The translations under genes and the position numbers were made by a program. The notes beneath the pieces were generated by a model. The model was not told the DNA's origin and searched no databases. It saw nothing but the letters and a program-made list of their open reading frames with translations. Shown here piece by piece: positions 23,277 through 46,056 of a stretch of 64,000 nt of DNA. How positions within the stretch are numbered: position 1 is the stretch's first letter; each line of letters starts with the position of its first letter. This DNA is from Saccharopolyspora thermophila (GTDB lineage: Bacteria; Actinomycetota; Actinomycetes; Mycobacteriales; Pseudonocardiaceae): the NCBI RefSeq assembly GCF_014646075.1, contig NZ_BMMT01000005.1, positions 1 to 64,000 of the forward strand, in the 5' to 3' direction.

Positions 23277-23474
23277 CCGGACCGCGCGGGGATCGCCACC
23301 CGCGGTCTCCGCGCAGTCGATCCGGCCGGAATCGGATGCCGCCGAATTGGTCACCGCGGGGTCACGGAATACTGAGAACGGCCTGAGAGCAACCTGAGTT
23401 CGCAGCTCACGGCGTTGGCCAGGGTGGCCATTCGCACACCCGCGGAATGCCGCGAAAAGGCCCGGACCAGCGAC

Positions 23475-23480
23475 TACTAT
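23475..23480 (+). promoter_or_regulatory. -10 hexamer of a leaderless promoter (first emb gene)
   Basis: TACTAT, 9 nt before GTG 23490. It rejects the longer reading from TTG 23415, which would put the promoter inside the coding region. The intergenic stretch 23277-23489 shows nothing else notable. Confidence 0.65.
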
Positions 23481-23489
23481 TCTCCACCC

Positions 23490-26400
23490 GTGCTCAGTGG
23501 CCAGGAAGAAAGCCGCCGAACGGACGATGCTTCGGCGCACGCCGAGATCAACCGCCCGCAGCAGTCGGCCAGGCGCCTGAAGCTTTTCGCGACGGTCCTC
23601 GGTCTGCTCGGCACGGTGTTCGCGCTGGCGGTGCCGTTCCTCCCGGTCAACTACAACATCACCACGCTGAAGTGGCCGACCGCCGAAGGCACCAAATCGG
23701 TGTCCGCGCCGCTGGTCAGCTACTCGCCGGTCTGGTTGACCGCCTCGGTGCCGTGCGCCTCGGCGCGCAGCCTCGACGCCCGCACCAACGGCCCGGGCAT
23801 CCTGCTGAGCACGAACCCGCCGTCGTCGGACTACGGCAACCTGACCGGTCTGGTGCTGCAGGTCGACAACGGCCACCTGACCCTGCTCACCAAGGGCCAG
23901 CAGGTGGGCACCGTGCCGCTGCCTGCCGGGGACTGCTCGATCGCGCTGCACTCCGACGCCTACGGCACCACGGCCAGCGTCGGTGACGAGTCGCTGGCGA
24001 ACCTGCGCGGCGACCAGCGCCCGCAGCTGACCGGGATCTACTCCAGCCTCGACGACGCCATCGACGACGTGCGCGGCCTGTCCTTCCAGGCCCGCGTCGA
24101 CAACCGCTACGAGAGCACCGCCACCGCCGTGAAGGTCGTGGTGATGGTTCTGGCGGTGCTGGCGTTCATCGGTTCCGTGGTGTGCCTGCGGCGGCTGGAT
24201 GTGCGGGCCGGTCGCCGCCCGCCGAAGCTCGTCCCGCGCGGCTGGTGGAAGCCGACGTTCCGGGACGTGTCGGTGATCGGCGCGCTGCTGGTCTGGTGGG
24301 TCATCGGCGCGATGACCTCGGACGACGGCTACATCCTGACCATCGCGCGGGCGCGCGAGAGCTTCGGCTACATCAGCAACTACTACCGCTGGTTCGGCGT
24401 GCCCGAGGCGCCGTTCGGCTGGTTCTACGAGCTGTACTCGGGGTGGGTGCAGATCTCCACGGCCACCCCGTGGGTGCGGTTGCCCGCGCTGCTGATGGGC
24501 ATCGTCAGCTGGCTGCTGATCAGCCGCGAGGTGCTGCCCCGGCTCGGCCAGCAGGTGCGGCGCAGCAACGCCGCCGGCTGGGCCGCTGCCGCCGTGTTCC
24601 TGGCGTTCTGGCTGCCCTACAACAACGGCCTGCGCCCGGAGCCGGTCGTGGTGCTGTTCTCGCTGCTCGCGCTGTGCGCCGTGGAGCGGGCGGTGGCCAC
24701 CGGGCGGCTGATGCCCGCCGCGCTGGGCCTGGTCGTGGCGGCGCTGTCGGTCGGCGCGAACCCGCACGGCATGGTGTCGGTGCTGCCGTTCATCGCCGCG
24801 CTCAAGCCGCTGTACCGGCTGGTGCGCAAACGGGCGAGCGAGTTCGGGTGGCTGCCGGTGCTGGCCCCGATCTCCGCGTCCGGGTTCGTGATCCTGACGC
24901 TGGTGTTTTCTGACCAGACCTGGCAGTCGGTCATCGACGCCACCGAGCTGCGCACCGACCTCGGCCCCAGCCAGAGCTGGTACGAGGAGCTCAGCCGCTA
25001 CAACCTGCTGTTCAGCCCCACCCCGGACGGCTCGATGACGCGGCGCTTCCCGGTGATGCTGGTGCTGCTGTGTCTGGCCACCTGCGCGGTGGTGCTGCTG
25101 CGGCGCGCCCGCATCCGCGGCGCGGCGCTCGGCCCGAGCCGGCGGCTGCTCGCGGTGACCGCGCTGTCCTTCGGCGTGCTGGTGCTGACCCCCACCAAGT
25201 GGTCCCACCACTTCGGCATCTTCGCCGCGTTCGGCGGCGCGCTGGCGGCGCTGACCGCGTTGGCCACCAGCAGCACGGTGCTGCGCTCCAAGCGCAACCG
25301 CGCGGCGTTCTTCGCGATGCTGATGGTGATTCTGGCGTTCGCCGCCACCGGTCCCAACGCCTGGTGGTACGTCTCCGGCTGGGGTGTGCCGTGGTTCAAC
25401 ATGCCGCCGCAGCTGGGCGGCCACCACCTGAGCACCGGGTTTTTGATCATCGCGGCGATCGCGTTGATCGTGGCGTTCATCGAGCACCTGCGCATCGACG
25501 AGAACAACCCGAAGGTCGTCGACGAGCGCTTCGGGCGGCAGGAGAAGCGCAGCCGGGCGCTGCGGCTGGGTACCGCTCCGCTGTCGATCCTGTGCGCGCT
25601 GCTGGTGCTGTTCGAACTGGCGAACTTCGGCAAGGTCATCCAGAAGCAGTGGGGCAGCTACAGCCTCGGCGCGGACAACATCAAGCAGATCGTCGGCTCC
25701 AGCTGCGGTCTGTCGGACTACATCTACGTCGAGACCAACCCGCAGGTCGGCATGCTGCGGGTGTCGGCGGAGCAGCCGAGCAAGGCGGCGCCGTCCGAGG
25801 ATCCCAACATCGGCATCCCGCCGAAGCGGCTGCGCGGCAAGGAGGACGCCGACCAGTACATGCGGGCCAAGATGGTTGGCTTCAACCGGCCCGGCCTGCC
25901 GCCCGGCGACGGCTCCGACCCGCAGGAACCGGACTGGAAGCCGCCGCACCAGTTCGGCAACGACAACGCGCCGGTGTGGGGCAGCTACGACGAGGCCGGC
26001 ATCGGCACCGGTGAACTGCGCACCCAGTGGTACGACCTGCCGGAGCGGGCGAAGACCGGCGAGGTGCCGGTGGTGATCTCGCTGGCCGGCGCGGAGCTGG
26101 GCGCGAACTCGATCGCCCTGGAGTTCGGTCACGACACCGACCACGGGTTCCTCATCACCGAGCGCAAGTACGTGGTGCAGGGCCCCGGGCCGGCCTGGCG
26201 CGACTTCCGGTTCACCGTCGGCGGCAAGTCCGAGGGCGCCACGAAGGTGCGCGTGGTGGCGGTGGACAACTCGCTCGGCCCCAACGGCTGGGTGGCGGTC
26301 AGCGCACCGCGCGCCCCGCAGCTGGTGAACATGACGGACTTCGTCGGGGACCAGCCGACGTTCGTGGAGTGGACGACCGCGCTGGTGCACCCGTGCCTGC

Positions 26401-26792
26401 AGATCCCGGGCGTGCACAACGGCATCGCGGAGATTCCGAAGTTCCGGGTGGCGGCCGGTGCGGAGGTGCGCGAGATCGGGCAGGGCTGGTCGTCGCCGGA
26501 CGCGGGCGGGCCGTTCGGTTGGCTCAACGTGGCGACCAGCATGCGTGAGCTGCCGACGTACCTGAAGAACAACATCCACCGCGACTGGGGTTCGCTGTAC
26601 GCGGTGGACCCGTACGAGCCGGACGCCCTGCCCGCGCAGGCGGCGATGGACGTGCACACCGAAACGCACTGGGGAACCTGGACCCCGGGTCCGCTGTCCA
26701 AGACGGTCCAGTTGCCGGGCGACGTGCCCAGCAGCGACGACCGCAACGACGTCAAGGGCTTCGACGTGGAGGAAGAACAACCCGAACAGTAA
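23490..26792 (+). CDS. Emb-type arabinosyltransferase (copy 1)
   Basis: 1100 residues, the usual length of EmbA/B/C. GT-C membrane enzyme that transfers arabinofuranose from decaprenyl-phospho-arabinose to arabinan outside the membrane. N-terminal TM then an extracytoplasmic jelly-roll domain (about 50-210), the Asp-Asp catalytic loop TSDDGYILTIAR (Asp278-Asp279), NYYRWFG, a conserved PTKWSHHFG in the TM core, and a C-terminal carbohydrate-binding domain with NGIAEIPKFR. This last motif and the loop make it the most mycobacterial-like of the three Emb copies here. Residue 285, aligning with EmbB Met306, is Ile. It stands apart from the other two Emb genes, downstream of glfT1. Confidence 0.93.
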   Translation: MLSGQEESRRTDDASAHAEINRPQQSARRLKLFATVLGLLGTVFALAVPFLPVNYNITTLKWPTAEGTKSVSAPLVSYSPVWLTASVPCASARSLDARTNGPGILLSTNPPSSDYGNLTGLVLQVDNGHLTLLTKGQQVGTVPLPAGDCSIALHSDAYGTTASVGDESLANLRGDQRPQLTGIYSSLDDAIDDVRGLSFQARVDNRYESTATAVKVVVMVLAVLAFIGSVVCLRRLDVRAGRRPPKLVPRGWWKPTFRDVSVIGALLVWWVIGAMTSDDGYILTIARARESFGYISNYYRWFGVPEAPFGWFYELYSGWVQISTATPWVRLPALLMGIVSWLLISREVLPRLGQQVRRSNAAGWAAAAVFLAFWLPYNNGLRPEPVVVLFSLLALCAVERAVATGRLMPAALGLVVAALSVGANPHGMVSVLPFIAALKPLYRLVRKRASEFGWLPVLAPISASGFVILTLVFSDQTWQSVIDATELRTDLGPSQSWYEELSRYNLLFSPTPDGSMTRRFPVMLVLLCLATCAVVLLRRARIRGAALGPSRRLLAVTALSFGVLVLTPTKWSHHFGIFAAFGGALAALTALATSSTVLRSKRNRAAFFAMLMVILAFAATGPNAWWYVSGWGVPWFNMPPQLGGHHLSTGFLIIAAIALIVAFIEHLRIDENNPKVVDERFGRQEKRSRALRLGTAPLSILCALLVLFELANFGKVIQKQWGSYSLGADNIKQIVGSSCGLSDYIYVETNPQVGMLRVSAEQPSKAAPSEDPNIGIPPKRLRGKEDADQYMRAKMVGFNRPGLPPGDGSDPQEPDWKPPHQFGNDNAPVWGSYDEAGIGTGELRTQWYDLPERAKTGEVPVVISLAGAELGANSIALEFGHDTDHGFLITERKYVVQGPGPAWRDFRFTVGGKSEGATKVRVVAVDNSLGPNGWVAVSAPRAPQLVNMTDFVGDQPTFVEWTTALVHPCLQIPGVHNGIAEIPKFRVAAGAEVREIGQGWSSPDAGGPFGWLNVATSMRELPTYLKNNIHRDWGSLYAVDPYEPDALPAQAAMDVHTETHWGTWTPGPLSKTVQLPGDVPSSDDRNDVKGFDVEEEQPEQ

Positions 26793-27521: not shown

Positions 27522-27959
27522 TCAGTCGCGGAAAATCAGAACCCTGAGCATGATGAAGTTGATCAGGGTGCCGAGGCCCTGCGCGATGACCCAGAACAGT
27601 GTGAACTGCCACGGCTCCTGCGCGTCGAACACCACGCACAACACCTGGTTCGAGCCCATGTTCACGAAGAACGTGATGGTGTAGAGCAGGGCGAACGCGC
27701 CCGCCTTGGCCTTGGTGTTGCCGGTGTTCGCGCCGCTGAAGGTGAACTTCCGGTTGATCAGGTACGACGCCGTGGTGCCGAAGATGAACGAGATCGACTT
27801 CGACAACCACACCGGCCAGCCGAGGACGCCCAGCAGCAGCGAGTAGGTGCCGAAGTCGATGACAGCGCAGCCACCACCGATGACGATGAAGCGGAACAGC
27901 TGGTTGAAGACGCCCAGGCGCTTCGGTTCTGCGGGGGCTGCGGATTCGGCCACGGCCAC
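27522..27959 (-). CDS. GtrA-family small membrane protein (Rv3789-like)
   Basis: 145 residues, four membrane segments, GtrA fold: FIVIGGGCAVIDFGTYSLLL, then TASYLINRKFTFSGAN, then FWVIAQGLGTLINFIMLRVL. GtrA proteins move or organise polyprenyl-phosphate sugars; Rv3789 next to dprE1 is linked to decaprenyl-phospho-arabinose use. Here it is divergent from dprE1, with 170 nt between them. GTG 27959 is chosen because GAGGTG lies 5 nt upstream; a start at 28088 would run into the dprE1 promoter and adds 43 Arg-rich residues. Confidence 0.88.
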   Translation of the reverse strand: MAVAESAAPAEPKRLGVFNQLFRFIVIGGGCAVIDFGTYSLLLGVLGWPVWLSKSISFIFGTTASYLINRKFTFSGANTGNTKAKAGAFALLYTITFFVNMGSNQVLCVVFDAQEPWQFTLFWVIAQGLGTLINFIMLRVLIFRD

Positions 27960-28116
27960 TGGTTCACCTCGAAGCTCGACGACAGGGCCACCGGGGACGC
28001 GCGGGTGCCGCCACCGCGAACCGACCACGCACACGTCCCGAGCGAGTGTAGCGACGACCCGCCGCACACCGCCGAGGACCGCACGCACCCGCCCGTGTTG
28101 GCCCCGTCCGCGCAGA

Positions 28117-28129: not shown

Positions 28130-29494
28130 GTGGGATCGGTAAAGGACGAGCTTCAGACGCTGACCGGCTGGGGGCGCACCGCGCCCACCAGGGCGCACGT
28201 CGTGAGCACCCCGGACGTCGAGGCGATCGCCAGGGCGGTCCGTGAGGCCGGTGAGCGCGGCGTCATCGCGCGCGGTCTGGGCCGCAGCTACGGCGACCCG
28301 TCGCAGAACGCGGGCGGCACGGTCATCGACATGACCGCTCTCAACCGGGTGCACCGCATCGACGTCGACGAGGCGACCGTGGTCGTGGACGCCGGCGTGT
28401 CCCTGGACACGCTGATGCGCCGGCTGCTGCCGTACGGGCTGTGGATCCCGGTGCTGCCGGGCACCCGGCAGGTCACCATCGGTGGCGCGATCGGCTCGGA
28501 CATCCACGGCAAGAACCACCACTCGCAGGGCTCGTTCGGCAGCCACGTGCTGTCGCTGGATCTGCTCACCGCGGACGGCGAGATCCGCACGCTCACGCCG
28601 GACGGCGAGGACGCCGAGCTGTTCTGGGCGACCGTGGGCGGCATGGGCCTGACCGGCATCATCCTGAACGCGACGATCAGGCTCAAGCGCGTGGAGACCG
28701 CATACTTCCTGGTCGACAACGTGCAGACGAAGAACCTGGACGAGCTGATCGAGCATTTCACCGACGGTTCGGACGACAACTACGTCTACTCGGTCGCCTG
28801 GTTCGACTCGCTGGCCCGCGGCGACCAGATGGGTCGCGCGCTGCTGACCCGCGGCAACTCCGCGAAACTGGAGGACCTGCCGAAGAAGCTGCGCAAGGAC
28901 CCACTGAAGTTCAACGCGCCGCAGCTGATGACCGCCCCACCGATCTTCCCCAACGGCCTGGTGAACAAGTTCACCATCACCGCCTTCAACGAGCTCTGGT
29001 ACCGCAAGGCGCCGACGCGGTACGGGCTGGTGCAGAACATCACCCAGTTCTTCCACCCGCTGGATCTGGTCGGCGAGTGGAACCGGGTGTACGGCCCGAA
29101 CGGTTTCCTGCAGTACCAGTTCATGGTGCCCTTCGGGCAGGAGGCGATGTTCCGCCGGTCCATCGACAGGATCAGCTCGTCCGGTCACGTGTCGTTCCTC
29201 AACGTGCTCAAGACGTTCGGCCCGGGCAACCAGGCGCCGATGTCGTTCCCGCGCGAGGGGTGGACGCTCACCGTCGACATCCCGATCACGCCCGGCCTGG
29301 ACCGGTTGTGCACCGAGCTGGACGAGATGGTGCTGGAGGCGGGCGGCCGCCTGTATCTGGCCAAGGAGTCGCGCACCACGCCAGAGATGATCGAGCGGAT
29401 GTACCCGCGGATCGAGGAGTGGCGCAAGATCCGCGCGACGGTCGACCCGGAGGGCGTGTTCCGCTCCGACCTGTCCCGGAGGCTGAGCCTGTGA
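28130..29494 (+). CDS. dprE1: DprE1-like decaprenylphosphoryl-ribose oxidase, copy 1 (Thr at the Cys387 position)
   Basis: 454 residues, FAD-dependent oxidase of the VAO family. Oxidises the 2'-OH of decaprenyl-phospho-ribose; DprE2 then reduces the keto product to the arabinose donor. FAD-domain motifs [26 protein letters not shown] and [12 protein letters not shown] are intact, as is the active-site Lys in YLAKESR. The segment that in M. tuberculosis carries the benzothiazinone-reactive Cys387 (WNICVDF) reads WTLTVDI here, with Thr381 in place of Cys. It overlaps the second dprE1 copy by 4 nt (GTGA). Probably functional given the intact motifs, but whether it still uses decaprenyl-phospho-ribose is inference. 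Confidence 0.9.
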
Positions 29495-30846
29495 CCATCA
29501 CCGTGAAGACCCTGACCGGCTGGGCACGCACCGCGCCAACCCGTGCCCGGGTGCTCAGCACCCCCGATGTGGACGCGATCGCGGAGGCGGTGCGCACCGC
29601 CGACGAGCGCGGCGTCATCGCCCGCGGCCTGGGCCGCAGCTACGGCGACACGGCGCAGAACGCGGGTGGCGTGGTCATCGACATGACGCCGCTGAACCGC
29701 ATCCACCGCATCGACCCGGACACGGCGGTCGTGGACGTGGACGCCGGGGTGAGCCTGGACCAGCTGATGAAGGCCGCGCTGCCGCACGGCCTGTGGGTTC
29801 CGGTGCTGCCGGGCACCCGGCAGGTCACCGTGGGCGGCGCGATCGCCAACGACATCCACGGCAAGAACCACCACAGCGAGGGCAGTTTCGGCAACCACGT
29901 GCTGTCGATGGACCTGCTCACCGCGGACGGCCAGGTCCGCGAGATCACCCCGGACGGCCCGGAGTCGGAGCTGTTCTGGGCGACCGTCGGTGGCATCGGC
30001 CTGACCGGCATCATCCTGCGCGCCCGGGTCCGGATGATCCGGACCGAGACGGCGTACTTCGTCGCGGACCTGGACCGCACGGACAACCTGGACGAGACGA
30101 TCGAGCTGTTCAAGAACTCCGACGACAACTACACGTACTCGTCGGCGTGGTTTGACTCGATCTCCACCGGTCCGCGGCTGGGCCGGGCCGCGTTCGGCCG
30201 CGGCTCGCTGGCCACAGTGGACCAGCTGCCGCCGAAGTTGCAGGCCGATCCGTTGAAGTTCGACGCGCCGCAGTTGGCGACGCTGCCGGACATCTTCCCG
30301 AACGGGCTGGCGAACAAGCTGACGTTCAGCGCGATCGGCGAGCTGTACTACCGGAAGACGCCCAAGAAGGCGCACGGCAGGATCCAGAATCTGACGCAGT
30401 TCTACCACATTCTGGATCTGTTCGGGGAGTGGAACCGCGCCTACGGGTCGAAGGGTTTCCTGCAGTACCAGTTCATCGTGCCGCTGGCCGCGGAGGACGA
30501 GTTCCGCCGTATCGTGCGGCGCATCGCGGAGTCCGGCCACGTCTCGTTCCTGAACGTGATCAAGAAGTTCGGTGCGGGCAACCAGGCGCCGCTGTCGTTC
30601 CCGATGCCGGGCTGGAACATCTGTGTGGACTTCCCGATCAAGCGCGGGCTCGGCGAGTTCTGCCGGGAACTGGACGCACGCGTGCTGGAGATGGGCGGTC
30701 GGCTGTACACCGCGAAGGACTCGCGGACCACGGCGGAGACGTTCCACCGGATGTACCCGCGAGTCGACGAGTTCCGCAAGATTCGCCAATCCGTTGACCC
30801 CGAAGGCATTTTCGCCTCAGACATGAGCCGGAGGCTTGAGCTGTGA
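29491..30846 (+). CDS. dprE1: DprE1 decaprenylphosphoryl-ribose oxidase, copy 2 (Cys retained)
   Basis: 451 residues. Paralogue of the gene just upstream, closely similar over the N-terminal FAD domain ([40 protein letters not shown]). It keeps the mycobacterial-type segment [11 protein letters not shown] (Cys378) and [19 protein letters not shown] with the active-site Lys, so it is the closer match to Rv3790. GTG 29491 sits inside the stop of copy 1, and the DprE2 gene overlaps its own stop in the same GTGA fashion; the three proteins are therefore translationally coupled. Confidence 0.93.
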
Positions 30847-31598
30847 TCGACGCCGTTGGAAACCCGCAGTCCTTGCTCGTCCTCGGCGGGACCTCCGACA
30901 TCGCGCTGGCGACCGCCGAGAAGTACGCGGCACAGCGCCCGCTGCGGATCGTGCTCGCCGCTCGCCCGTCGGAGCGGCTGGACGCCGCGGCCGAGCGGCT
31001 GCGCAGGACCGGCAGCACCGTGACGACGGTGCCGTTCGACGCACGCAAGCCGGAGACGCACGGCGAGGTGATCGAGAAGGCGTTCGCCGAGGGCGACGTG
31101 GACGTCACGCTGGTGGCGTTCGGCATCCAGGGCGACAACGAGCAGGGCTGGACGGATGTCGAGGCCGCTCGCGAGGTCGCCGAGGTGAACTATGTGGCGC
31201 CGATGACGCTGGGCGTGCGGCTGGCCGAGCGGCTGCGCAAGCAGGGCCACGGCCGCCTGGTGGCGATCTCGTCGCCGGCCGCCGAGCGGGCCCGCCGCTC
31301 GAACTTCGTGTACGGCTCGTCGAAGGCCGGGATGGACGCGTTCTACACGGGGCTGACCTACGCGCTGGCCGACTCCGGGGTGAAGGTCACCGTGGTGCGG
31401 CCGAACTTCGTGCACACCAAGCTGACGCAGGGCATGAAGCCCGCGCCGATGGCGCAGACGCCGGAGCAGGTCGCCGAGGTGATCGTGGACGCGGTGCGCC
31501 GGGGCAAGGAGCAGGTGTGGGCGCCGGCGCAGATGCGCTGGGTGATGATGGTGCTGCGGCACCTGCCGCGGGTCATCTTCCGCCGCCTGCCGTTCTGA
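30843..31598 (+). CDS. dprE2: DprE2 decaprenylphosphoryl-2-keto-pentose reductase (SDR)
   Basis: 251 residues, short-chain dehydrogenase. NAD-binding motif [18 protein letters not shown], second-site NYVAPM, catalytic Ser in [14 protein letters not shown] and Tyr-x-x-x-Lys in [13 protein letters not shown]-terminal [12 protein letters not shown] is typical of the family. Works with DprE1 to convert decaprenyl-phospho-ribose to decaprenyl-phospho-arabinose, the Emb donor. Starts in a GTGA overlap with DprE1 copy 2. In M. tuberculosis aftA follows; here a hairpin and an accessory island follow. Confidence 0.93.
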
Positions 31599-38482: not shown

Positions 38483-38671
38483 CTTCTGACTCCTGTCTGC
38501 TCCACACGGAGCACGCCGTTGCGGCCCGGTTCGTTGCCCTGCGGCGGCAACCTCATACGTTGCCTGGGTCGTCAATCGGCCGGTTGAATCTAACGCGCCG
38601 CCGTTACTGGGCGCACTGGGTGTTCGCGAGGATGATCCGGGACACACCTTCGTCTCCCCCCAGGAGTGCGG

Positions 38672-41600
38672 TTGAGGCACTGGAACAGCACCGCGCAGCT
38701 CGACATGCCCGCCGAAACCCGGCTACCCGGCGGGGAAGGCCGGCAACCGTCCCGGCTCGGCGCGTGGCTGGCGCACCTGCTGTCGGTGTGCGTCGGGGTC
38801 GCCGGGCTGGTCTGCGCGGTGGCCCTGCCGTTCGCCCCGGTGTGGCTGGACCGGACGGAGGTGCGCTGGCCGTCCGGGCCCGCCGAGTCCACGACGGCAC
38901 TGTTCACGCCCTACCGGCCCGCCGTGTTCGACGCGTCCGTGCCGTGCCCGGTGCTGCGGGCCGCTCTCGCCCGCCCCGGCCGGACCACCGTGCTGTCCAC
39001 CCTGCCGCCGGGCAGCGACCGCGAAGGCATGGTGCTCACCACCCGCCTCGGCAGACCGGAACTCGTCCTCGGCCAGCACCAGGTGCCGCTGCCGCCGCTC
39101 GGGTCCGCCTGTGACCTGCGGGTGCACGCCGACTCGCAGCGGTCCGTCGTGACCTTCGGCGACCACCCGCCCGTGGAGCTGCCCGGCATCGCCGCGCCGG
39201 AGATCTTCACGTTCAGCACCGACCTGCCGCCACCGCTGACCGGCGGGCTCGCGGTCACCGCCACCACGTTCTCCTGGTTCGACACCGCGCCCACGGAGTT
39301 CAAGAGTGCGCTGATCAGCGCCGCGCTCGTGCTGGCGTTCGTCTCGCTGGTCCTGCTGTTCGCGCACGCGCCGCCCGCGCTGACCACCGTGCGGATCTCC
39401 GCGCCGCTGCTCGTGGTCGACGCCGCGGTGCTCGGGGTGCTCGCCGGGTGGCTGATCATCGGGCCGCTCACCGACGACGACGGGTTCGCGATGATGACCA
39501 TCCGCAACTACGACGTCGCCGGCGACATCGGCAACTACTATCGCTGGTTCAACGCGTCCGAAACCCCGTTCACCCTGGTCCAGCACCTGATGCGCGTGGT
39601 GGCGGAGCACAGCCTCGCGCCCGCCTGGCTGCGGGTGCCCAGCGCGGTGGCCGGGCTGGTCACCTGGCTGCTGGTCAGCCGCGGCATCGTCAGCCCGGTC
39701 TGCCGCGGCACCCGCCGGTTCCCGCTGCACCTGCTCGCGGCGGTGTTCTTCCTGGCCTGCTGGTTGCCGTACGGGCTGGGTATTCGGCCCGAACCGTTCG
39801 TCGCGCTGGGCACCACCGCGCTGGTGGCGGCGCTGCTCAAGCTCGGCCGGACGCGCGCGCCGCACTTCTGGCTGGGTGTGGCCGCGCTGGCCGGCGGCCT
39901 CACCGCGGCCATCACGCCGACCGGCGTCAGCGCCCTGATCATCGTCGCGGTCTTCACGCCGCGCATTACCCGCGTGCTCGGGCAGGCCGGGCCGGTGCCC
40001 CGGTGGATCGCGGTGCCGACGCGCGTCGCGCTGGTCGGCAGCGTGGCCGCGGTGGGGCTGGTGGCGATGTTCGCCGACTCCACCTGGAACGGGCTGCGGG
40101 CGGCGACCGCGATCCACCACGAGTTCGGGCCGAGCTTCGGCTGGTACCAGGAGATCGAGCGCTACACCGGGCTGCTGGGCACCACCATCTGGGGCGCGTC
40201 CGGCAAGCGGATGGCGGTGTTTCTGGTGGTGGCCGGGGTGCTGATCGCCGCGGCGTGCGCGGTGCGGCAGGTGCACCGCTGGGTGGGGATGACCGACCTG
40301 CCGGTGGTGGTCGGCAGCGCCGCGGCCGTGCTGGCCGGGCTGTGGCTGACGCCGTCGAAGTGGTCCCACCACTTCGGGGCCCTGGCCGGGGTGGGATCCG
40401 CGCTGCTCGCGGTCAGCGTCGTGCTGCTGGTGCGCATGGGCCGGCACGCGCCAGCCGGGCGTGAGGCCGTGCTGCTCGGAATCTTCGGCGGCATCGGTGC
40501 CTCGGTCGCCGCGGCGCTGTCGTTCATGGGCCCGAACGTGTGGCCGATGCAGTCGGATTTCGCGATGCCGTGGTCGGACACCCCGGTGGAGCCCGGCCTG
40601 CCGTTGCCCGACCCGCTGCTGTGGATGGCCGCCGGGGCGGCCAGCGGAGTGCTGGTGTTCGCCGTGGTGCGCCTGCGGGCACTGGTCAAGCACGTCGAGC
40701 CGGGTCCCCGGAATCTCGTGTGGACGGTCGTGCCGGCGTCGGTGCTGGGGCTGGCCGCGCTGGCGTCGGTGCTGGTGCTGCTCGGGTCGTTCCTGGCCGC
40801 GCCGCGCACCATGGGCGACCGGTTCTCCATCGCGAGGATGAACAAGCAGAGCATCCGGGCCAGCACCTGCGGGCTGGAAAGCGACGTCGAGACGCTGCCG
40901 ATCGCCACCCGCCTGACACCGGTGGACGGCGTCGACGAACTCGACGGGTTCACCCGCGGCGGCGACCCCCCGCAGGAGGCGGACCTGCGCGAAGGCAACC
41001 CCGGGGAGCCGCTGCGGGTGCCGACCGACGACCCCGAGTCCGACGAGGTGCAGGCCACCACGTCCAGCCAGTACTCCTGGACCAGCCAGGTCGGCGGACC
41101 GCAGACCACCGGCACGCTCACCTCCGCCTGGTTCGGCCTGCCGCAACTCACCAGCGACCAGGCACTGTCGTTGTGGGTCGCCGGGCGGCCGGAGCAGGGG
41201 AACTCGCTGGCGCTGGAGTTCGGTACCGCCGCGGGTCCACTGGAGGTGCGGGAACTGCGCGACCCGCCGCCGACGGAACTGCCGTTCGACGACCCGCGCC
41301 ACGGCCGCCCCATCGACTGGCGCGACTTCCGCGGCTGGCGGCTGCTCACCATCGACGCGCACGACCTGCCCGCCGCGGCCGACCGCGTGCGGGTGCGCGC
41401 CGAGGACCGCACCAGCGACGAGCAGGGCTGGCTGTCGATCAGCGGCCCGGCGGTGCGCGACGTGGTGCCGCTGCGGCAGGCCCTCAACGCGCTGCCGCCC
41501 GCGCTGATCGACTGGCCAATGAGCTTCGTGTTCCCGTGCTGGTACGCATATCCGCAGGTCGGGCACGGTCTCGCGGGCAGCCCGCGGCTGCTGGTGACGC

Positions 41601-41842
41601 CGCCCGCCGGGGAGGCGTCGATGGCGTACGCGCGCGAGTGGGGTGGGGTGTTCGCGGGCGTGCCGATGCAGTCCCGCCGCCTGGAACTGCCCAGTCGTCT
41701 GCGCGACGCCCCCGGCCACACCTGGGGCCACCTCTACGCGGTGCGTTACGAGATCGACCGCGACGCCTACACCACGACCCAGCGCCGGGAGCTCATCGGC
41801 GGCGCCCACGGCGACCCGCCCTACCCCTTCGAGGAGCACTGA
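38672..41842 (+). CDS. Emb-type arabinosyltransferase (copy 2)
   Basis: 1056 residues. Same architecture as copy 1: N-terminal TM, jelly-roll domain (RWPSGPAESTTALFTPYRPA), catalytic loop PLTDDDGFAMMTIRN (Asp268-270), GNYYRWFNASETPF, WLTPSKWSHHFG in the TM core, C-terminal carbohydrate-binding domain (TTGTLTSAWFGLPQL, FVFPCWYAYPQVGHGLA). The loop diverges from the DDGYIL form of copy 1. TTG 38672 is the best start by AGGAG spacing (5 nt), but GTG 38666 and ATG 38705 remain possible. First gene of the emb-emb-GT2-gtrA-FAD cluster. Confidence 0.9.
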   Translation: MRHWNSTAQLDMPAETRLPGGEGRQPSRLGAWLAHLLSVCVGVAGLVCAVALPFAPVWLDRTEVRWPSGPAESTTALFTPYRPAVFDASVPCPVLRAALARPGRTTVLSTLPPGSDREGMVLTTRLGRPELVLGQHQVPLPPLGSACDLRVHADSQRSVVTFGDHPPVELPGIAAPEIFTFSTDLPPPLTGGLAVTATTFSWFDTAPTEFKSALISAALVLAFVSLVLLFAHAPPALTTVRISAPLLVVDAAVLGVLAGWLIIGPLTDDDGFAMMTIRNYDVAGDIGNYYRWFNASETPFTLVQHLMRVVAEHSLAPAWLRVPSAVAGLVTWLLVSRGIVSPVCRGTRRFPLHLLAAVFFLACWLPYGLGIRPEPFVALGTTALVAALLKLGRTRAPHFWLGVAALAGGLTAAITPTGVSALIIVAVFTPRITRVLGQAGPVPRWIAVPTRVALVGSVAAVGLVAMFADSTWNGLRAATAIHHEFGPSFGWYQEIERYTGLLGTTIWGASGKRMAVFLVVAGVLIAAACAVRQVHRWVGMTDLPVVVGSAAAVLAGLWLTPSKWSHHFGALAGVGSALLAVSVVLLVRMGRHAPAGREAVLLGIFGGIGASVAAALSFMGPNVWPMQSDFAMPWSDTPVEPGLPLPDPLLWMAAGAASGVLVFAVVRLRALVKHVEPGPRNLVWTVVPASVLGLAALASVLVLLGSFLAAPRTMGDRFSIARMNKQSIRASTCGLESDVETLPIATRLTPVDGVDELDGFTRGGDPPQEADLREGNPGEPLRVPTDDPESDEVQATTSSQYSWTSQVGGPQTTGTLTSAWFGLPQLTSDQALSLWVAGRPEQGNSLALEFGTAAGPLEVRELRDPPPTELPFDDPRHGRPIDWRDFRGWRLLTIDAHDLPAAADRVRVRAEDRTSDEQGWLSISGPAVRDVVPLRQALNALPPALIDWPMSFVFPCWYAYPQVGHGLAGSPRLLVTPPAGEASMAYAREWGGVFAGVPMQSRRLELPSRLRDAPGHTWGHLYAVRYEIDRDAYTTTQRRELIGGAHGDPPYPFEEH

Positions 41843-42049
41843 CCGGCCGAGCATGCGCCACCGGGAGCCCGACCGCGGGGCCGGTGACGCTCGGCGACCG
41901 TGCGGGGTAGGGCGTCACCCGGTGGTGGCGCGTTTGTCGTGCGGTGGCGCGGGTTTCCGGGCACGGGGTGCAGGCGCTGCGGGATCGGTGGTTTTCCCCG
42001 AGACTTGGATTCGCCGCAGACCAGCCACGTGACCAGGGGGAACGTTTCG

Positions 42050-45000
42050 GTGCCGGACGGGATCGGACAGACCGCAGCACAGCTGTGCGACCCCGCGCCC
42101 GCCCAGATCGACGCGCCAGGCCGCCGACGACTGTCCACTGTGGTGCCCGTGCTCGTCGGAATGCTCGGCGTGCTGGCGGCGGTCGCGGTGCCCCTCGCGC
42201 CGGTGGTGACCCAGCAGGTCACCGTCACGTGGCCAAAGGCCGGGGAACTCCCCGAAGGAACCCTCGCGTTCGTCGTCCCCTACGAGCCGCCCGAGGTGCA
42301 CGTGCGCGTGCCCTGCGCGGTGGTGCGGGCAGGGCAGCAGCGCGGCGTTCCCACCACACTGGTCGCCAGCCGCCTGCCCGGCCAACCCACCGAGGGCTTC
42401 GCGGTCACCACGGCCCGCGACCACGTCATCGCCCTGGTCGCGGGCCGCGAGGCGCTGCGTGCCCCCATCGGGCCGGGCTGCGACGTCGCCATCGACGCCG
42501 ACAGCGCAGGCAGCCGGGCCAGCATCGGGGCGCAGGTCGCCGAACTGCCCGGCGCGCGGGTGCGCGACATCGTCGCCTTCACCACCGACCTGACGCCACA
42601 GCAGGCCGCCGGCCTGCACGTGCGGGTCACCACCGCCACCTGGTTCGAAAACTCCCCCACCGCCACCAAACAGGCCCTGATCGCCGCCCAGCTCCTGCTG
42701 GTCGCGGTGGCGTTCGCGCTGCTGCTCGCCCGCGACCGCGGCCGCCACGCCGCGCGCTCGCCGAGGCGTCCCGGGATGCGCCACCTGGTCGACGCCGGGG
42801 TCGTCGTGGTGCTCGGCGGCTGGTGGGTGCTCGGACCGACCACAGCGGACGACTCGTTCGCCGCGATGACCATCCGCAACGCCCTGGACACCGGCGACGT
42901 CGGCAACTACTACCGCTGGGAGAACGCCTCCGAAGCGCCGTTCGCGCTGGCGCAGCAGCTGCTCGAACCGGTCGCCGCGCTCAGCACCACCCCGCTGGTC
43001 ATGCGCATCCCCAGCGTCGTGGCGGCCGTGCTGACCTGGCTGGTGCTCAGCCGCGGCATCCTCGGCGCGGTGCTGCCGGAACACGGGCGGCGCAGCGCCG
43101 TCCGGCTGCTGGCGGCGGTGAGCTTCCTGGCCTGGTGGTTGCCCTTCGGGCTCGGCGTCCGCCCCGAACCGTTCGCCGCGCTCGGCCTGGCCGCCGTGCT
43201 GGCCTGCGTGCTGCGGGCCGTGCGGACCGAGCGCGTCACCTGGCTCGGGCTGGCGGCGCTGGCCGCCGGGCTGTCGGTCGCGGTGACCCCGATGGGCATC
43301 GCCGCCCTCGCCCCGTTCGCCGTGCTCGCCCCGCGGATCCGGCACCTGCTCAGCACGCCGGTGGTGGCGCTGCTGGCGGGCATCGCCGCCACCGGGATCG
43401 TGGCGATGTTCGCCGACCAGTCCCTGTTCGGCGCGCGCAGGGCCACCGCGCTGCACACCCTGTACGGGCCCGACGTGCCGTGGTTCCAGGAAATCCTGCG
43501 CTACCAGTACCTGCTGGGCTTCGACCTGCAGGGCGACCTGGCCCGCCGCGCCCCGGTGCTGCTGACCTTCGTCGTGGCCGTCCACACCGGACTGCTGTTG
43601 CTGCGCGGGGCGGGTCGGCTGCCGGGGCTGCGGTGGGCGCACGTGCCGCCGCTGTGCCTGGCGGTCAGCGTCGCGCTGATGACCCTCACCCCGTCGAAGT
43701 GGACGCACTACTTCGGCGCGCTGACCGGCGTCGGAGCCGCTACCGTGACCGCAGGCGTGGTGCTGATCACCGCAACGGCCCGGCAGGTGTCGCGTGATCG
43801 GGTGGTTGTGCTGGCCGGCCTGCTGGGCACGGCGATGGCCGCGGTGGCGGCGGCGTTGGTGTTCGCCGGAAAGAACAACTGGTTCCTGCACTCGCAGTAC
43901 GGGGTGCCCTGGGGAGAGCAACCGCTCCGGCCGCTGAACAGCCCGCTGCCGTGGTTGCTGGTCGCGGTGGTGCTGCTGCTGGTGCCCGGCCGCTCCCGGC
44001 AGATGCTCGTGCGGATGCCCGCGGTGATCGGTGCGGGAGCAATGGGGGTGACGGTGGCGGTCGTGCTGTCCTCGTTCGTCGTCGCACCCGTGCGCCAGGC
44101 CGGCGGCTACTCCATCGGCGGGCAGAACCTCACGGCTGGCTGTGGCATCGCGGACCACGTGGTGGTCACCCCCGACGTCCCCGGCGGCGCACTGACCAGC
44201 CACGACGACGCCCACGCCGCCGGATTCGCGGCCGGTCGCGGACACGCGCCGGGGTTCGACCCGCCGCCGGGCATACGCGAGTTCTGGGGCAGCCTGGACG
44301 GCGGCCAGATCTCCACCGGCACGCTGACCACCGGCTGGTACGCGCTGCCCGCGCTTCGCCCGGACCAGGAGCTCGCCGTGGCCGTGGCGGGCCGCAGCGG
44401 CGACGGCAACCGCGTCGTCCTGGAGTTCGCCTCGCCCACCGGGACCGTCGGCGAACGGGTCCTCGACGACACCTGGCTGGACACCGACGAGCGCCCCGCC
44501 TACCCCAGCGACCACGTCGTCCAGGACCGGCCGCAGGACCACCCGGCCTGGCGCGACCTGCACGTCCCCGCCCGCGACGTCCCGTCCGGGGCCGACCGGG
44601 TGCGGATCCGCGCGGTCGACGCCACCACCGACGCGGCGGGCTGGGTCGCCGTCGCCGGCCCGCGCGTGCGCGACGTCATCCCGCTGGCGCGGTACCTGCG
44701 CGGCCGGGCGCCGATCCTCGTCGACTGGTCGATGACCTGGAACGCACCGTGCCTGCGCGAGATGCCGCGGGTGGCGCACGGCCTGGCGGAGCCGCCCGCG
44801 TACCTGCTGAACCCGCCCGCGGCGCTCGGTTTCGGCGGCACCGCCGCCTACGAACGCGGGATCGGCGGGACGTTCGCCGGAGTGGCTGAGGTCGGCACCC
44901 AGGAGGAGGTGCCCACCCGGCTGGTCGGGGCCGAGCGAACACCCGACTACGCCGAGTGGGGGCACCTGATCGCGGTCCGTTACCCGCTGCCGGGCAACCG

Positions 45001-45052
45001 CTTCGACGTACGGAGCGTGTCCGTTCCACGGTGGGGTTGGCGAGGGGAGTGA
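42050..45052 (+). CDS. Emb-type arabinosyltransferase (copy 3)
   Basis: 1000 residues, slightly short for the family. Catalytic loop TTADDSFAAMTIRN (Asp267-Asp268), GNYYRWENASEAPF, MTLTPSKWTHYFGALTG and a C-terminal domain with STGTLTTGWYALPAL and CLREMPRVAHGLAEPP. It shares the -MTIRN- loop with copy 2, so copies 2 and 3 are sisters and probably arose by tandem duplication. GTG 42050 has AGGGGGA 8 nt upstream. The 207-nt gap before it has no obvious terminator. The GT2 gene starts 2 nt after its stop. Confidence 0.92.
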   Translation: MPDGIGQTAAQLCDPAPAQIDAPGRRRLSTVVPVLVGMLGVLAAVAVPLAPVVTQQVTVTWPKAGELPEGTLAFVVPYEPPEVHVRVPCAVVRAGQQRGVPTTLVASRLPGQPTEGFAVTTARDHVIALVAGREALRAPIGPGCDVAIDADSAGSRASIGAQVAELPGARVRDIVAFTTDLTPQQAAGLHVRVTTATWFENSPTATKQALIAAQLLLVAVAFALLLARDRGRHAARSPRRPGMRHLVDAGVVVVLGGWWVLGPTTADDSFAAMTIRNALDTGDVGNYYRWENASEAPFALAQQLLEPVAALSTTPLVMRIPSVVAAVLTWLVLSRGILGAVLPEHGRRSAVRLLAAVSFLAWWLPFGLGVRPEPFAALGLAAVLACVLRAVRTERVTWLGLAALAAGLSVAVTPMGIAALAPFAVLAPRIRHLLSTPVVALLAGIAATGIVAMFADQSLFGARRATALHTLYGPDVPWFQEILRYQYLLGFDLQGDLARRAPVLLTFVVAVHTGLLLLRGAGRLPGLRWAHVPPLCLAVSVALMTLTPSKWTHYFGALTGVGAATVTAGVVLITATARQVSRDRVVVLAGLLGTAMAAVAAALVFAGKNNWFLHSQYGVPWGEQPLRPLNSPLPWLLVAVVLLLVPGRSRQMLVRMPAVIGAGAMGVTVAVVLSSFVVAPVRQAGGYSIGGQNLTAGCGIADHVVVTPDVPGGALTSHDDAHAAGFAAGRGHAPGFDPPPGIREFWGSLDGGQISTGTLTTGWYALPALRPDQELAVAVAGRSGDGNRVVLEFASPTGTVGERVLDDTWLDTDERPAYPSDHVVQDRPQDHPAWRDLHVPARDVPSGADRVRIRAVDATTDAAGWVAVAGPRVRDVIPLARYLRGRAPILVDWSMTWNAPCLREMPRVAHGLAEPPAYLLNPPAALGFGGTAAYERGIGGTFAGVAEVGTQEEVPTRLVGAERTPDYAEWGHLIAVRYPLPGNRFDVRSVSVPRWGWRGE

Positions 45053-45054
45053 CC

Positions 45055-46056
45055 ATGGCCGACGCGATGCGCCAGCGGGTCCCGGTTCCACGACGACACA
45101 CCCACCAGTCCGGTACGCCGCCGCTGATCTCCTACGTGCTGCCGGTCTACAACGAGGCGGCGGGCATCCGCCGCTTCCACACCGAGCTGACCGCGGCCAC
45201 CGCCACCCGGCCCGAGTTCGGCTACGAGTTCATCTACGTCAACGACGGTTCGGCCGACGGGTCACTGGAAATCCTGCAGGACCTGGCCAAGAACGACCCG
45301 CGGGTGCGGGTGGTGGACTTCGCCCGCAACTTCGGCCACCAGATCGCCATCACCGCCGGGCTGGACCACGCCGGGGGCGACGCGGTCATCGTGATGGACA
45401 CCGACCTGCAGGACCCGCCGCAGGTCAGCCTGCAGCTGATCGACGAGTGGCTGGCCGGCGCGGAGATCGTGTCCGCGCGCCGCCGCACCCGCCGCGACAG
45501 CGCGTTCAAGCGGTTCACCGCGCACACCTACTACCGGCTGCTGCGGCGCTGCGCCGAGGTGGATATCCCGGTGGATACCGGGGACTTCCGGCTGCTCGAC
45601 CGGCGAGCCGCGGAGGAGCTGCGCGGATTCCGGGAACGCAGCCGGTTCATCCGCGGCATGGTCGCCTCGATGGGCTTCCACCAGCGCGAGGTGCTGTTCG
45701 ACCGCGACGAGCGGATCGCCGGCGAGACGAAGTACCCGATGCGCAAGATGCTGCGGCTGGCCGCCGACGGCGTCACCAGCTTCTCCACCGTGCCCCTCAA
45801 GCTCATCACCCGGATGGGCTTCGCGGCGTTGGCGCTGGCGCTGCTCGGCATCGTCTATGCGGTGACGCTGCGGCTTTTCTTCCCGGCCGTGACCGTGTCC
45901 GGGTGGACCATGCTGATGGTCGCGATGCTGTTCCTCGGCGGGCTGCAGATGCTGTCGCTGGGCGTGATCGGCAGCTACGTCGGCCGCATCTACCAGGAGG
46001 TGCAGCAACGACCGCTGTACATCGTGCGGGACGTGATCCGGCATGACCAGGACTGA
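45055..46056 (+). CDS. GT2 polyprenyl-phosphate glycosyltransferase (GtrB/DPM-like)
   Basis: 333 residues. N-terminal GT2 domain: SYVLPVYNEAAGIRRF, FIYVNDGSADGSLEIL, FARNFGHQIAITAGLDHA, DXD-type VIVMDTDLQDPP and the GDFRLLDRRA motif, then two C-terminal TM helices (about 255-325) as in GtrB. Predicted to load a sugar from a nucleotide donor onto polyprenyl phosphate at the inner face. ATG 45055 has GGGGAG 6 nt upstream. Coupled to emb copy 3 (2-nt gap) and overlapping gtrA by 14 nt, so its product probably feeds the same wall assembly. Sugar unknown. Confidence 0.9.
   Translation: MADAMRQRVPVPRRHTHQSGTPPLISYVLPVYNEAAGIRRFHTELTAATATRPEFGYEFIYVNDGSADGSLEILQDLAKNDPRVRVVDFARNFGHQIAITAGLDHAGGDAVIVMDTDLQDPPQVSLQLIDEWLAGAEIVSARRRTRRDSAFKRFTAHTYYRLLRRCAEVDIPVDTGDFRLLDRRAAEELRGFRERSRFIRGMVASMGFHQREVLFDRDERIAGETKYPMRKMLRLAADGVTSFSTVPLKLITRMGFAALALALLGIVYAVTLRLFFPAVTVSGWTMLMVAMLFLGGLQMLSLGVIGSYVGRIYQEVQQRPLYIVRDVIRHDQD

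Follow-up and report, generated by a model that had tools for sequence, protein, structure and literature searches.

The 64,000-nucleotide stretch of Saccharopolyspora thermophila DNA analysed here (contig NZ_BMMT01000005.1, positions 1 to 64,000; hereafter the window) belongs to a genome of 5.36 Mb and carries an operon with two tandem genes for DprE1, an enzyme that is essential in mycobacteria and the target of clinical-stage tuberculosis drugs. On the forward strand, dprE1 copy 1 (28130..29494; GTG start at 28130, TGA end at 29494, 454 amino acids (aa)) is followed by dprE1 copy 2 (29491..30846; GTG start at 29491, TGA end at 30846, 451 aa) and by dprE2, encoding a decaprenylphospho-2-keto-pentose reductase (30843..31598; GTG start, TGA end, 251 aa, NF053786), with GTGA overlaps at both junctions. 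The motif CGGAGGCT is present ahead of copy 2 and of dprE2, within the last codons of the preceding gene, and at both junctions it looks like a ribosome site. Both copies are recovered by the DprE1 equivalog model NF053785 (773 bits for copy 1 and 800.7 bits for copy 2, cut-off 500) over profile positions 2-449 of 449, and DprE2 scores 402.6 bits with NF053786 (cut-off 250). The domains PF01565 (FAD-binding) and PF04030 (ALO-type C-terminus) are found in each copy, and solved DprE1 structures align over nearly the whole length of both. The two proteins are 68% identical to each other; copy 1 has its best named matches in Saccharopolyspora species (89-94% identity; L039, L040, L042, L044), and its identity to a Halosaccharopolyspora sequence (L041) is 88%.

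Residues were mapped by phmmer alignments to Mycobacterium smegmatis DprE1 (4aut) and by a multiple alignment. On the column of Cys387 in M. tuberculosis and Cys394 in M. smegmatis, copy 1 has Thr381 and copy 2 has Cys378; copy 1 therefore lacks the Cys-387 that marks a DprE1 sensitive to covalent benzothiazinones (BTZ), whereas copy 2 has it. We compared 17 published pocket positions, namely 14 non-covalent contacts (PMC6128881), Tyr60 (PMC6153800), Tyr314 (PMC3958311) and Cys387. Copy 1 differs from the M. smegmatis enzyme at four of the 17 (Ser228Val, Tyr314Phe, Asn385Thr and Cys387Thr in M. tuberculosis numbering; Val222/Phe308/Thr379/Thr381 in its own) and copy 2 at none (Ser218/Tyr305/Asn376/Cys378 in its own numbering). 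Common to both copies are Tyr60, His132, Gly133, Lys134, Trp230, Gln336, Lys367 and Lys418 (M. tuberculosis numbering). Gln334 and Asp389, two further pocket positions, are also kept in both. The initial annotation had described two complete dprE1 genes head-to-tail before dprE2, with GTGA overlaps, opposite residues at the BTZ position, and the active-site Lys and FAD motifs kept in both; the coordinates, the alignments, the conserved pocket residues and the PF01565 matches bear this description out. Catalytic residues are intact in 35 of 35 copy-1-type sequences, and the comparison of copy 1 with its counterpart in genome G008 (nonsynonymous divergence, dN, 0.026; synonymous divergence, dS, 0.285; dN/dS about 0.09) points to purifying selection.

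The ancestry of the two copies was examined in a rooted tree of 78 rows, obtained by thinning near-identical members of 189 distinct DprE1 sequences (picked by relatedness, not at random, and including 15 outgroup genes out of 55) and computed with the residue columns removed; a separate earlier tree held 96 of 160 distinct sequences. Copy 1 belongs to an old clade of 12 rows (99/98), the sister of a 49-row group holding copy 2 and Mycobacterium. Cys387 is seen in a 32-row fork of the 49-row group (84/89, not starred) and occurs separately within the copy 1 clade (L149, L151, L162); on that rooting it would, most simply, have arisen twice. Because copy 1 lies deep in the rooted tree and the Cys lineages are nested, the cysteine targeted by BTZ looks like a derived feature, which copy 1 would lack by ancestry. 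At least 10 changes at residue 387 are required on the 78 rows, which rules out this residue as a simple lineage marker. A recent tandem duplication was rejected by the tree and by an approximately unbiased (AU) test of copies 1 and 2 as sisters (p-AU 2e-54), and a single origin of the seven rows in the copy-2 slot was rejected over the whole gene (p-AU 0.00065).

Among the 189 sequences, residue 387 is Cys in 91, Thr in 62, Ala in 22 and Ser in 14 (L158, one short piece, is excluded from all counts). For the outgroup, 55 homologues were read from other orders of the class, covering 54 of 76 genomes with a match; they were called by sequence similarity, and some are distant (identity down to 37%, one without Lys418). 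The 40 genes beyond the 15 used in the tree agree with those 15. Their residue 387 is Ala in 50, Thr in 5 and Cys in 0, and their pocket shows the copy 1 pattern, with Val228 in 54, Phe314 in 51 and Thr385 in 52. Copy 1 is the nearer of the two window copies for 54 of the 55 genes, with one tie, and a dprE2 homologue lies near 14 of the 15 outgroup genes whose flanks were read. Together, these sequences indicate that Thr, Ala or Ser stands at 387 in many environmental actinomycetes, in an otherwise complete active site.

Of the 22 genomes of the genus, 17, that of the window included, have a copy-1-type gene (at least 89% identical) adjoining another dprE1, so neither chance nor a fault of this one assembly explains the tandem. 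It is also present in eight of eight genomes of genera g36 and g37, and an Ala+Thr tandem in G105 brings the total to 26 genomes. The residue pairs are Thr+Cys in 18, Thr+Thr in six, Thr+Ser in one and Ala+Thr in one, and the opposition of residues noted at the outset is not the general state of the tandem.

Each type is also found by itself. The copy-1 type is the sole DprE1 found in eight of 10 g7 genomes, in G224 and in G232, all of which have an Emb homologue; at seven of these 10 loci, which were read (L041, L132, L133, L136, L152, L154, L155), it is flanked by gtrA and dprE2, and emb lies upstream. The other two g7 genomes (G069, G073) and G225 lack copy 1 and have a copy-2-type gene with Thr, G225 with a further DprE1-like gene at 64%, and copy 2 alone occurs in G011, G016 and G017 (g1). 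In g1, g7, g18 and g21 loci, the next gene found after the sole copy is dprE2 (L041, L132-L136, L152, L154, L155, L160, L171). Eight genomes have a single Emb match (E ≤ 1e-30) whichever DprE1 type they kept (G067, G069, G071, G072, G074, G076, G224, G225). A renewed search of 22 genomes for DprE1 was positive in 21; none was found in G013, though Emb homologues are present, possibly reflecting an assembly gap. G006 carries copy 2 together with L158, a DprE1-like sequence interrupted by a stop codon (62% to copy 1, 69% to copy 2) that is apparently a decayed copy. In an RpoB tree of 30 genomes, a single clade (100/99) unites the tandem genera g1, g10, g36 and g37 with the single-copy g7, g18 and g21; within it, G069 and G073 are not grouped together among five g7 genomes. 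The simplest reading would be an old tandem with repeated loss of either member; replacement in place may also account for the single copies, and in either case both types appear to suffice by themselves at the same operon position.

The second copy of the window departs from its neighbours in its similarity to relatives. Identity with G008 is 94.7% for copy 1, 80.0% for copy 2 and 87.3% for DprE2, and with G015 it is 93.0%, 73.1% and 92.4%, respectively. We checked for mosaicism by sliding-window identity, then by a three-sequence permutation test, and then by regional trees. Window copy 2 reaches up to 93% identity with other Saccharopolyspora copy 2 genes near nucleotides (nt) 226-450 and at its 3' end, and over nt 826-1275 it is 69-78% identical to them and 83-87% identical to G186; its first 150 nt have no close match. 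The permutation test delimited a segment of about nt 513-1203 with G186 as donor (p ≤ 1e-5), and of 753-1203 or 787-1194 when other donors are used (p ≤ 1e-5 for each). This segment of other origin (30003..30693 of the window, forward strand, approximate limits) contains Cys378 and groups with the DprE1 of G186/G185, apart from the other Saccharopolyspora copy 2 genes. Copy 2 of G004 and G007 has a segment of its own (about nt 725-1161, p ≤ 1e-5), as does that of G021 (787-1029, p ≤ 1e-4); the same test found no segment in four negative-control alleles (p 0.14, 0.24, 0.61, 0.85). In regional trees, with limits picked after seeing the same data and therefore not blind, the flanks unite ten copy-2 alleles (94/88) and the middle splits the alleles three ways (p-AU 4e-56). 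The copy-2 genes of G015 and G368-G373 differ along most of their length. In the copy 1 sequences no such break is seen, and gene conversion between the two window copies gave no signal (permutation p 0.12). As judged from these sequence comparisons, window copy 2 is a recombination mosaic whose Cys-bearing segment matches other genera. The dprE2 genes of the genus also form two groups, at 87-92% identity to that of the window in G001, G008, G010, G012, G015 and G018, and at 75-79% in other genomes whose copy 1 identity is similar.

Emb-type genes flank the dprE operon on both sides. Upstream lie an Emb-type arabinosyltransferase of 1125 aa (23415..26792, forward strand; PF04602, PF14896, PF17689) and, divergent from copy 1, a GtrA/DPMS-TM protein gene on the reverse strand (27522..28088; PF04138), comparable to Rv3789 beside dprE1. 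Downstream are two more Emb-type arabinosyltransferases (38666-41842 and 41900-45052), 28-29% identical to the upstream one and followed by a GT2 gene at 44956-46056. In the established pathway, DprE1 oxidises decaprenylphosphoryl-ribose, DprE2 reduces the product and Emb enzymes use the resulting arabinose donor. We infer that both window copies oxidise decaprenylphosphoryl-ribose; they would be translated together with dprE2 and feed one such pathway, in which DprE2 would reduce the oxidised product and the Emb-type enzymes would consume the arabinose donor. Copy 1 would represent a deep, stably inherited lineage with an old pocket (Val228, Phe314, Thr385, Thr/Ala387), and copy 2 the lineage that gave rise to the mycobacterial pocket (Ser228, Tyr314, Asn385, Cys387), its pocket segment in the window having probably been acquired from another Pseudonocardiaceae DprE1.

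We therefore regard it as fairly probable that both genes encode genuine, interchangeable DprE1 enzymes, copy 1 of a deep lineage and copy 2 a mosaic, with BTZ resistance as a by-product. The two copies look functionally interchangeable because relatives retain either one alone in the same operon. For the same reason, a separate substrate for copy 1 becomes less likely. The initial annotation had raised such a substrate, another lipid-linked sugar, as an option; in its fuller form, copy 1 would oxidise another polyprenyl-phosphate pentose or supply the extra Emb proteins for a second arabinan, leaving copy 2 as the main donor enzyme. The four pocket differences (Val/Phe/Thr/Thr versus Ser/Tyr/Asn/Cys), the two further Emb-type proteins and GT2 in the window, and the retention of the tandem in 26 genomes would fit this proposal, which we nevertheless consider unlikely, as most g7 genomes, G224 and G232 yielded a copy-1-type DprE1 and no other while all having an Emb homologue, copy 2 alone suffices in three g1 genomes, and the single Emb match of eight genomes is independent of DprE1 type. 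The pocket of copy 1 is, moreover, that of the outgroup, and hence old-looking rather than newly specialised.

Soil inhibitors of DprE1 might instead have favoured the pair as insurance, an insensitive old-pocket enzyme being kept beside a second one with a pocket segment swapped by recombination. Two groups of copy 2 alleles, that of the window and that of G004, G007, G019 and G021 (the mosaic allele of G019 seen in one analysis), carry foreign pocket segments between Saccharopolyspora flanks, copy 1 lacks such a break, and the many changes at residue 387 on the 78-row tree agree with this scenario. The avermectins, which are natural products, inhibit the M. smegmatis enzyme in vitro with a micromolar half-maximal inhibitory concentration (PMC8776228), but their binding is not primarily via the cysteine, and the paper argues for DprE1-independent targets. 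The recombination may also be neutral, and the swapped segments retain Cys. With the literature on natural DprE1 inhibitors covered through general DprE1 listings, we judge selected insurance improbable; the broader proposal that the cysteine was a late invention of one main lineage, and that Saccharopolyspora and its kin pair a fixed, insensitive old-pocket enzyme with a copy whose pocket segment is swapped again and again between genera under selection by natural soil inhibitors, strikes us as quite doubtful. That copy 1 is an inactive relic, surviving through its translation ahead of copy 2, is barely credible: the missing cysteine and nothing else speaks for it, and against it stand the intact catalytic residues, the low dN/dS, the genomes with a copy-1-type gene as their sole DprE1, and the report that Cys387 is not essential for activity (PMC6128881).

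Several points weigh against the interchangeability of two DprE1 enzymes of different ancestry. The case for interchangeability is one of gene content, and another locus could make up for a lost copy; the retention of the tandem in 26 genomes suggests some benefit of having both, and the four pocket differences could shift lipid or sugar preference. In the tree of 78 rows, several outgroup rows are long and their placement is unsure, the node uniting the two DprE1 lineages has support of 97/77, and open drawing applies to 17 of the 75 inner branches; in the RpoB tree, some g1 nodes are weak. The clade that the flanks give for ten copy-2 alleles is not starred, and the AU test over the whole gene did not reject monophyly of window copy 2 with three main Saccharopolyspora copy 2 rows (p-AU 0.162), which we explain by the mosaic structure. 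Activity, expression and inhibitor response of both genes are predictions from sequence, and engineered replacements of the cysteine reduced the catalytic efficiency of M. smegmatis DprE1 (PMC8776228), so that copy 1 may depend on its other pocket residues for efficiency. Intrinsic BTZ tolerance of the host is nonetheless plausible, because copy 1 is old, lacks the BTZ cysteine, keeps its catalytic residues and appears to be under purifying selection; without the adduct-forming residue it would escape covalent BTZ action as a by-product.

Other DprE1 genes met in the survey depart further from this scheme. A Ser-type clade (L059, L069, L073, L083, L089, L115) has no dprE2 homologue in the stretch read, and its neighbours, chosen by a simple script, include P450 and KAS III domains (L059) and an acyl carrier protein (ACP)/thioesterase protein (L083), domains that suggest a glycolipid or secondary-metabolite use. 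Across all 14 Ser-type sequences, operon-borne ones included, Val replaces Trp230 in 13 and Met stands at 228 in 13. Three Ala-type sequences (L144 in G102, L146 in G104, L148 in G103) have an odd active site, with Gly for Lys134 and Lys for Ser228, and no dprE2 homologue in the stretch read; their host genomes have a second DprE1 elsewhere. L082, on a contig labelled Candidatus Melainabacteria, shows a Pseudonocardiaceae-like gtrA-dprE1-dprE2 locus and is probably mis-binned.

Single-copy relatives with the same operon offer a natural swap experiment on the tolerance of the DprE1 pocket, and the mosaic copy 2 suggests that pocket-bearing segments of DprE1 move between genera in soil bacteria. 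Among the open-licence PubMed Central matches listed, no paper dealt with tandem DprE1, Pseudonocardiaceae DprE1, the ancestral state or derived origin of Cys387, or mosaic dprE1; dprE1 has served as a tree marker within mycobacteria (PMC4524478). The general idea of a second, non-Cys DprE1 behind weaker BTZ action is already published: Nocardia brasiliensis HUJEG-1 has a Cys and a Ser DprE1, which the authors of that study offer as one possible reason for weaker BTZ action (PMC4608729). The window resembles that genome in holding one Cys-type and one non-Cys DprE1, and differs in that its two genes overlap in tandem and the non-Cys copy has Thr instead of Ser and comes from a deeper lineage. 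In two other Nocardia, the Ser-type genes (L059, L069) belong to another clade and have no dprE2 homologue within the 17 kb read. In mycobacteria, replacement of Cys387 is linked to BTZ resistance, and M. avium (Ala) and M. aurum (Ser) have naturally BTZ-resistant DprE1, described as a replacement of a conserved Cys (PMC3206020). Copy 1 shares with these enzymes a natural non-Cys residue at the BTZ site; two Ala-type mycobacterial rows of other species (L097, L102) sit inside the Cys lineage and look like secondary losses, and copy 1 like ancestral absence. Compared with known DprE1 as defined by NF053785, both window copies are alike in being full-length, with catalytic residues and a dprE2 neighbour, and the window operon is unlike it in having two such genes, copy 1 carrying Val/Phe/Thr/Thr instead of Ser/Tyr/Asn/Cys.

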